This document shows, one piece after another, positions 44,142 to 44,979 of a DNA stretch of 64,000 bases (its first letter is position 1; each line of letters starts with the position of its first letter). The stretch is from Terriglobia bacterium. GTDB lineage: Bacteria > Acidobacteriota > UBA6911. The notes under the pieces were generated by a model. It was not told where the DNA came from, made no database searches, and was given only the letters and a program-made list of their open reading frames with translations. Where the stretch lies: assembly GCA_020072565.1 (NCBI GenBank), contig JAIQGI010000011.1, forward strand, positions 62,001-126,000. The letters run 5' to 3'. Made by a program: the position numbers and the translations under genes.

Positions 44142-44415
44142 GTTCGCGATTCGCAGTGCGGTGGATTGCTGCCGTTTTCGACCCGGGAGCGGTGAGGGTG
44201 AAAGTGCAGAAGCCCCCGCCTGGGGAGGGGGCAGTGACCAGCGTCCCCAAGGTCAGCGTCAATAGGGAGGCTGCAGACTTGGACTCAGTGGTGGCTGCTC
44301 CCCCGGCCGCAGGAGCAGTTGACTGCAGGTCTGCAAAGGTATATTGTGCGACCATTGGATTTAGATACGGGCAACTCGGGTTGATTTTCCCAACATACGC
44401 GGCAGGGGGTGTCGG

Positions 44416-44979
44416 ATGCGAACGCTTCAAAACCTGGGCATACTTGTTTTCATTGCGGCCACCGCCGTCACAAGCGGCTTTCGAGACAGCTCAGCCCAGA
44501 CAGCAACTCAGCTCAAACCCGGCAGTCCCGCGCCTCAGTTCTCTCTCCCGGGATCGGACGGCAAGACCTACAGCCTGGCAGGGTTTGGAGGCAAGCAGGC
44601 GGTGGTGCTTGTCTGGTTTGTCAAAGCCTACAGCGCCGGCTGAACGGCCCAATGTCAATCGCTCCGTGAGAGCGGCGACGAAATCCGCGCCTTTAATGTT
44701 GCTTTTTTCGCCATCAGCACTGATTCCCCTGAAACGAACAAGGCTTATGCCCAGTCGCTGGGCGTAGACTATCCCATTTTGAGCGACCCTACCCGGAAGG
44801 TGGCTCTAGCCTACGGCGTCGCCTCCCCGGTTTATGAGGGCATTTCGCGATGGACGTTTTACATCGGCCTCGACGGGAAGATCCTTTACATCGACAAGGA
44901 GGTCAGTCCATCCGATCATGGCAAGGCGATCGCCGCGAAGCTCGCCGAGCTTGGTGTTCCGAAACGTGCACGGCGGTGA
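44416..44979 (+). CDS. Exported peroxiredoxin-like selenoprotein (in-frame TGA = Sec76)
   Basis: Thioredoxin-fold redoxin of about 187 residues. The signal peptide is MRTLQNLGILVFIAATAVTSG. The redoxin body begins LKPGSPAPQFSLPGSDGKTY. At codon 76 (44641-44643) there is a TGA, read as FVKAYSAG-U-TAQC. The family peroxidatic Cys belongs exactly there (PGCT), and Cys80 may be the resolving partner. After the TGA the same frame continues with perfect family sense: FFAISTDSPETNKAYAQSLGVDYPILSDPTRKVALAYGV...RWTFYIGLDGKILYIDKEV. A SECIS-like stem-loop follows the TGA. A simple nonsense mutation is the alternative, but its position would be a coincidence. AGGGGGTG precedes the ATG. It would act as a periplasmic thiol peroxidase next to iron-uptake genes. 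Confidence 0.82.
44654..44679 (+). promoter_or_regulatory. Bacterial SECIS-like stem-loop
   Basis: Immediately downstream of the in-frame TGA, CGCTC (44660-44664) pairs with GAGCG (44670-44674) around the loop CGTGA. GTC (44654-44656) can pair with GAC (44677-44679) below a small internal loop. The apical loop begins 21 bases after the TGA and has G at its second position, which fits the published bacterial SECIS pattern (loop 16-37 bases downstream, G in the first two loop bases). Confidence 0.65.

Follow-up and report, generated by a model that had tools for sequence, protein, structure and literature searches.

The window, a stretch of 64,000 nucleotides, carries on its plus strand a single reading frame that runs from an ATG at 44416 to a TGA at 44977-44979 and contains one internal stop, a TGA at codon 76 (44641-44643). 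The original prediction of a 188-codon frame interrupted only by this TGA was correct with respect to the frame, but the figure of 188 counts the terminal stop, and the read-through product has 187 residues. The surroundings of codon 76 read AG-U-TAQC, as claimed, and an ORF caller applied to 44416-44979 returned the two pieces of 75 and 66 amino acids into which the gene had been expected to be split. The features of the locus are as follows.

44404-44409, plus strand: probable Shine-Dalgarno sequence AGGGGG, 6 nt before the ATG, read from the sequence
44416-44979, plus strand: selenoprotein gene for a predicted exported PrxQ/Bcp-like peroxiredoxin with selenocysteine (Sec) at residue 76
44416-44496, plus strand: predicted N-terminal signal peptide, residues 1-27, cleavage proposed between SSA and Q
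44641-44643, plus strand: UGA codon 76, read as Sec at the peroxidatic position
44653-44655, plus strand: TGT codon of Cys80, the candidate resolving Cys of a U-x3-C motif
44659-44675, plus strand: SECIS hairpin UCGCUC-CGUGA-GAGCGG, apical loop at 44665-44669
44848-44865, plus strand: R145-W-T-F-Y-I motif

Upstream of the gene lies feoB, with an iron-dependent repressor/FeoA-domain gene in between. The predicted position beside feoB is thus accurate for this locus, but not as a conserved neighborhood, since neither the window's feoB nor the regulator was found near the subfamily genes at any of 75 other loci (flanks of up to 5.5 kb). Lacking conservation, the neighborhood gives no functional link, and a connection to feoB was rejected.

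The site of codon 76 was placed by tblastn in 109 distinct close homologues, where it is TGA in 90 (a fraction that may be inflated, as four Sec members served to build the search patterns), TGC in 18, TGT in 1, and nothing else. Cys accordingly stands in place of Sec in 19 of the 109, and bias of the search patterns is not the explanation for a site that admits only Sec or Cys. A TGA at codon 76 also recurs in related peroxiredoxins of the same class. Decoding of the internal TGA as Sec is strongly supported by these comparisons, and insertion at codon 76 can be regarded as near certain at the level of sequence evidence. The possibility that the terminal TGA also encodes Sec was rejected because the homologues end near the same point; termination of the gene with TGA in turn implies that UGA is not globally reassigned in this genome. 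Named genomes yielded 80 loci, which belong almost exclusively to Acidobacteriota, Planctomycetota, and Verrucomicrobiota, and a search by phylum added more. The presence of selB in 43 of 45 genomes with the TGA form of the subfamily vs 7 of 14 with only stop-free forms (p = 2.8e-4) is based on genome labels that reflect stop counts rather than codon-by-codon assignment. No match to selB was found in the TGA-form genomes G349 and G284, which incomplete assembly could explain. Two Sec-peroxiredoxin genes of the subfamily occur in tandem, within about 1.4 kb, at two loci (L075, 5995-7272, and L078, 5076-6462). The subfamily lets Sec and Cys forms be compared cleanly in a natural setting.

The read-through protein matches the Pfam family AhpC-TSA (PF00578) above its cut-off (E value of 1.4e-26) and Redoxin with 7.7e-20. 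Its AlphaFold model, which has a pLDDT of 91.8 and an N-terminus of low confidence, adopts a peroxiredoxin fold of the Bcp/PrxQ/AhpE type; the best solved matches are Bcp1 (3drn, TM up to 0.89 by target), BcpB of Mycobacterium tuberculosis, AhpE, and PrxQ, and the sequence-profile comparison agrees with the fold in placing Bcp/PrxQ best. The description as a thiol peroxidase therefore stands as to family and fold, from which we infer the peroxidase activity itself. NCBIfam contains no model dedicated to the subfamily, which passed none of the specific cut-offs in the model search, the window protein scoring 84 bits vs a cut-off of 140 for PRK09437, 55 vs 260 for the PrxQ model, and 29 vs 270 for the PrxU model NF040737; ResA/TlpA-type models match it below cut-off. 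The proposed signal peptide appears likely here, where the hydrophobic stretch has a mean Kyte-Doolittle value of 2.7, and in most family members, which begin with a hydrophobic signal-like segment or a lipobox as judged by hydropathy. Export of the window protein is therefore likely.

In the model, Sec76 starts helix alpha-2 (residues 74-85) and Cys80 follows one turn later in the same helix. The Cys at position +4 is invariant in all 109 homologues, Cys forms included, and none has a Cys at +5. R145, which we take to be the conserved active-site Arg of peroxiredoxins, and T147 are invariant in 47 aligned sequences. Position -3 is Thr in 108 of the 109 homologues, the Ser of the window protein being the sole exception, and position -7 is Pro in 103, but Val in the window protein. 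The resulting active site, VxxxSxxU, fits the T/SxxU/C pattern of Sec/Cys peroxiredoxins (PMC1794560) and departs from the strict PxxxTxxU motif (PMC13188914) that most relatives retain. Both replacements may alter or tune the peroxidase activity of the window protein.

Taken together, the protein is most likely an exported Sec-containing PrxQ-type peroxidase resolved through Cys80, and we consider the explanation as a whole, that of an exported Bcp/PrxQ-type peroxiredoxin with SECIS-directed Sec76 and Cys80 as resolving residue, to be very probably correct. SelB with Sec-tRNA(UCA) would bind the hairpin just 3' of UGA76, so that Sec would be placed there instead of termination, and the signal peptide would export the chain. 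From its place at the N-terminal end of helix alpha-2, Sec76 would then attack the peroxide as a selenolate, the selenenic acid would be resolved by Cys80, four residues on, with formation of a selenylsulfide, and an envelope thioredoxin-like reductase would presumably recycle the Sec76-Cys80 pair.

A variant that differs only in the resolving step, and that we regard as possible but rather unlikely, is an AhpE-like one-Sec peroxidase in which an external thiol reduces Sec76 directly and Cys80 is structural. The 1-Cys enzyme AhpE of M. tuberculosis is indeed among the closest solved folds, and a Cys at the +4 helix position probably needs unfolding to reach Sec76, but the retention of Cys80 in 109 of 109 homologues, including the Cys forms, is what would be expected of a resolver. 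Less probable is an exported seleno-reductase or Sec-containing thiol-disulfide oxidoreductase, in which Sec76 and Cys80 would swap disulfides in the envelope rather than reduce peroxide. The invariant +4 Cys would supply a redox pair, the peroxidatic motif of the window protein is changed in its PxxxT portion, and the ResA/TlpA-type models match as well, albeit below cut-off. Against this reading, the motif U76-T-A-Q-C80 is spaced as U-x3-C, whereas oxidoreductases have UxxC. Bcp/PrxQ and AhpE also come out as the best matches by fold and sequence, the presumed active-site Arg never varies, and Thr at -3 is kept in 108 of the 109 relatives.

The hairpin downstream of UGA76 has the predicted geometry, with six stem pairs (44659-44664/44670-44675) and a CGUGA loop that begins exactly 21 nt past the UGA and carries G at its second position. 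The energy of the single-sequence fold was rejected as support for a SECIS, since the 61-nt fold has a z value of only -1.0, although the four apical pairs are included in the optimum, and support came from comparison only. For the window sequence, the chance of six pairs given the protein and synonymous codons is p = 0.023, and that of six pairs together with GU in the loop is p = 0.0013 under synonymous recoding. Among 71 distinct Sec sequences, the hairpin that opens with UC(G/A)(C/U)U(C/G) around the CGUGA loop is paired in 96.4% of cells and shows 49 two-sided changes, a covariation that 0 of 500 shuffles matched; the best slid register reached 67.6% and 10 two-sided changes. RNAalifold, unprompted, returned the identical hairpin with seven pairs, the inner six of which the window sequence forms. 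The six core pairs are complete in 67 of 71 Sec forms but in none of the 12 Cys forms (Fisher 1.9e-11, treating related sequences as independent). CGU serves as the Arg codon of the loop in 69 of 75 Sec forms and in none of 12 Cys forms, although it makes up just 11 of the 188 Arg codons of three large genes in the window. The stem with a GU loop was observed in 63 of 71 sequences vs an expected 0.25 under synonymous recoding. The retention of hairpin and CGU loop in Sec forms beyond this expectation indicates selection on the RNA and not on the protein alone. As far as sequence comparison can decide, the covariation in Sec forms and the decay in Cys forms settle the hairpin at 44659-44675 as the SECIS, and the subfamily supplies a clear example of covariation in a bacterial SECIS.

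Several exceptions and relatives of the hairpin were also encountered. The SECIS stem or loop is degraded in the TGA forms at L121 (6118-6162) and L165 (1633-1677), which may have lost Sec insertion recently or may use another element, and rare apical loops in Sec forms (AGUGA near 6139 in L062; GGGAC and GGGUC in L097 and L119) are useful for learning which loop bases SelB requires. The genome of the window harbors two further peroxiredoxin genes with an in-frame TGA at the peroxidatic position (L052, G000 C20:120827-121270, and L057, G000 C8:98914-99411), the product on C20 appearing exported and that on C8 cytosolic and Bcp-like. Their downstream hairpins differ, and a genome-wide covariance search with the SECIS model, of which the window sequence is part, gave a confident match to the present gene only, from which it follows that the two other genes use different hairpins. 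A separate Sec-peroxiredoxin branch with the motif FTxGUTxE (L035, L038, L042-L044, L046, and L048) shares a strong hairpin that starts 22 nt after the UGA; its AGUCU or AGGCU loop resembles the GGUCU loop of Escherichia coli.

The genome of the window (7.46 Mb, 135 contigs, 98% complete, 3.8% contamination) encodes the machinery that the original prediction presupposed and whose absence would have spoken against it. A tRNA-Sec with UCA anticodon and G73 is located on contig C25, where it scores 73.5 bits and exceeds the Rfam cut-off; both Rfam and ARAGORN call it, and no second tRNA with this anticodon was found in the genome. The genes selA (541 bits), selB (387), and selD (396) all score above curated cut-offs and occur in two copies each (selB on C3 and C19, selD on C13 and C19, selA on C23 and C19). 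One set, in which SelB is divergent, forms a selA-selD-selB cluster (L021, G000 C19:227772-232814), and the other is native and dispersed (L012 on C3, L022 on C13, L028 on C23), so that two Sec-decoding sets accompany the single tRNA-Sec found. In the SelB phylogeny, the C3 copy falls with its own genus. The C19 copy joins a second SelB from the family relative G029; both branches are long and stand apart from the remaining 20 sequences (100/100). The composition of C19 correlates with the window at 0.95, which together with the related second SelB of G029 makes contamination an unlikely source of the second set. Photobacterium profundum 3TCK, reported to carry two complete Sec operons (PMC5330540), offers a precedent. 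A more far-reaching proposal, that the gene represents a distinct, undescribed exported Sec-peroxiredoxin subfamily with a U-x3-C intra-helix selenylsulfide and that the two SelBs divide the selenoprotein mRNAs by SECIS type, is speculative and in our judgment quite improbable.

The two SelB copies might also suggest that UGA is read as Cys through a selC*-type tRNA-Cys and the second SelB, as reported for some deltaproteobacteria (PMC7609411), but the second selB sits with selA and selD, no tRNA gene was found in the 16-kb stretch around this cluster, and the only UCA tRNA found is a tRNA-Sec with G73 by Rfam and ARAGORN, so that this reading is highly improbable. A sequencing error or a pseudogene with a chance nonsense codon, conceivable for a gene from one MAG that gene callers would split, is virtually excluded and already refuted comparatively by 90 distinct homologues from many genomes of three phyla with TGA at the same codon and a covarying SECIS, the closest named relative (68% identity) among those with TGA.

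Sec-containing peroxiredoxins of the Bcp type (TxxU; PF00578/COG1225) are listed in PMC13188914 and PMC9312934, with that of Eubacterium acidaminophilum as prototype. Those with TxxU or T/SxxU are a long-known family to which the window protein adds a member, combining an AhpC-TSA domain, a TGA aligned with Cys, a downstream SECIS, and host sel genes with tRNA-Sec. In the literature searched, which covered few subscription papers, no description was found of an exported U-x3-C branch or of its presence in Acidobacteriota; it is a little-described branch across Acidobacteriota, Planctomycetota, and Verrucomicrobiota. Since standard gene calling splits such genes, Sec-dependent peroxide defense of the envelope is probably under-reported, which would concern abundant, mostly uncultured phyla of soil and water.

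With known Sec peroxiredoxins, the window protein shares the AhpC-TSA/Bcp domain, the peroxidatic Sec, and a SECIS just downstream, but it differs in its SxxU motif, the Cys at U+4, the signal peptide or lipobox of the subfamily, and its low PrxU score. Bcp/PrxQ proteins (PRK09437; PDB 3drn and 5iiz) are the best profile and fold matches, and their peroxidatic site likewise falls where alpha-2 begins. E. coli Bcp has its Cys pair at C45/C50, with the resolving Cys at +5, in contrast to the +4 Cys of the window protein, which further departs from this group in having Sec for Cys, in its predicted export, and in scoring below the PRK09437 cut-off. M. tuberculosis AhpE (1xvw and 4x1u) has the same fold at about 30% identity, but is a 1-Cys enzyme, whereas Cys80 is invariant in the subfamily of the window protein. 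The hairpin, finally, is presumably comparable to the E. coli fdhF-type SECIS in its in-frame position shortly after the UGA and its small apical loop with G-U, from which it differs by a CGUGA instead of a GGUCU loop on a stem of six or seven pairs.
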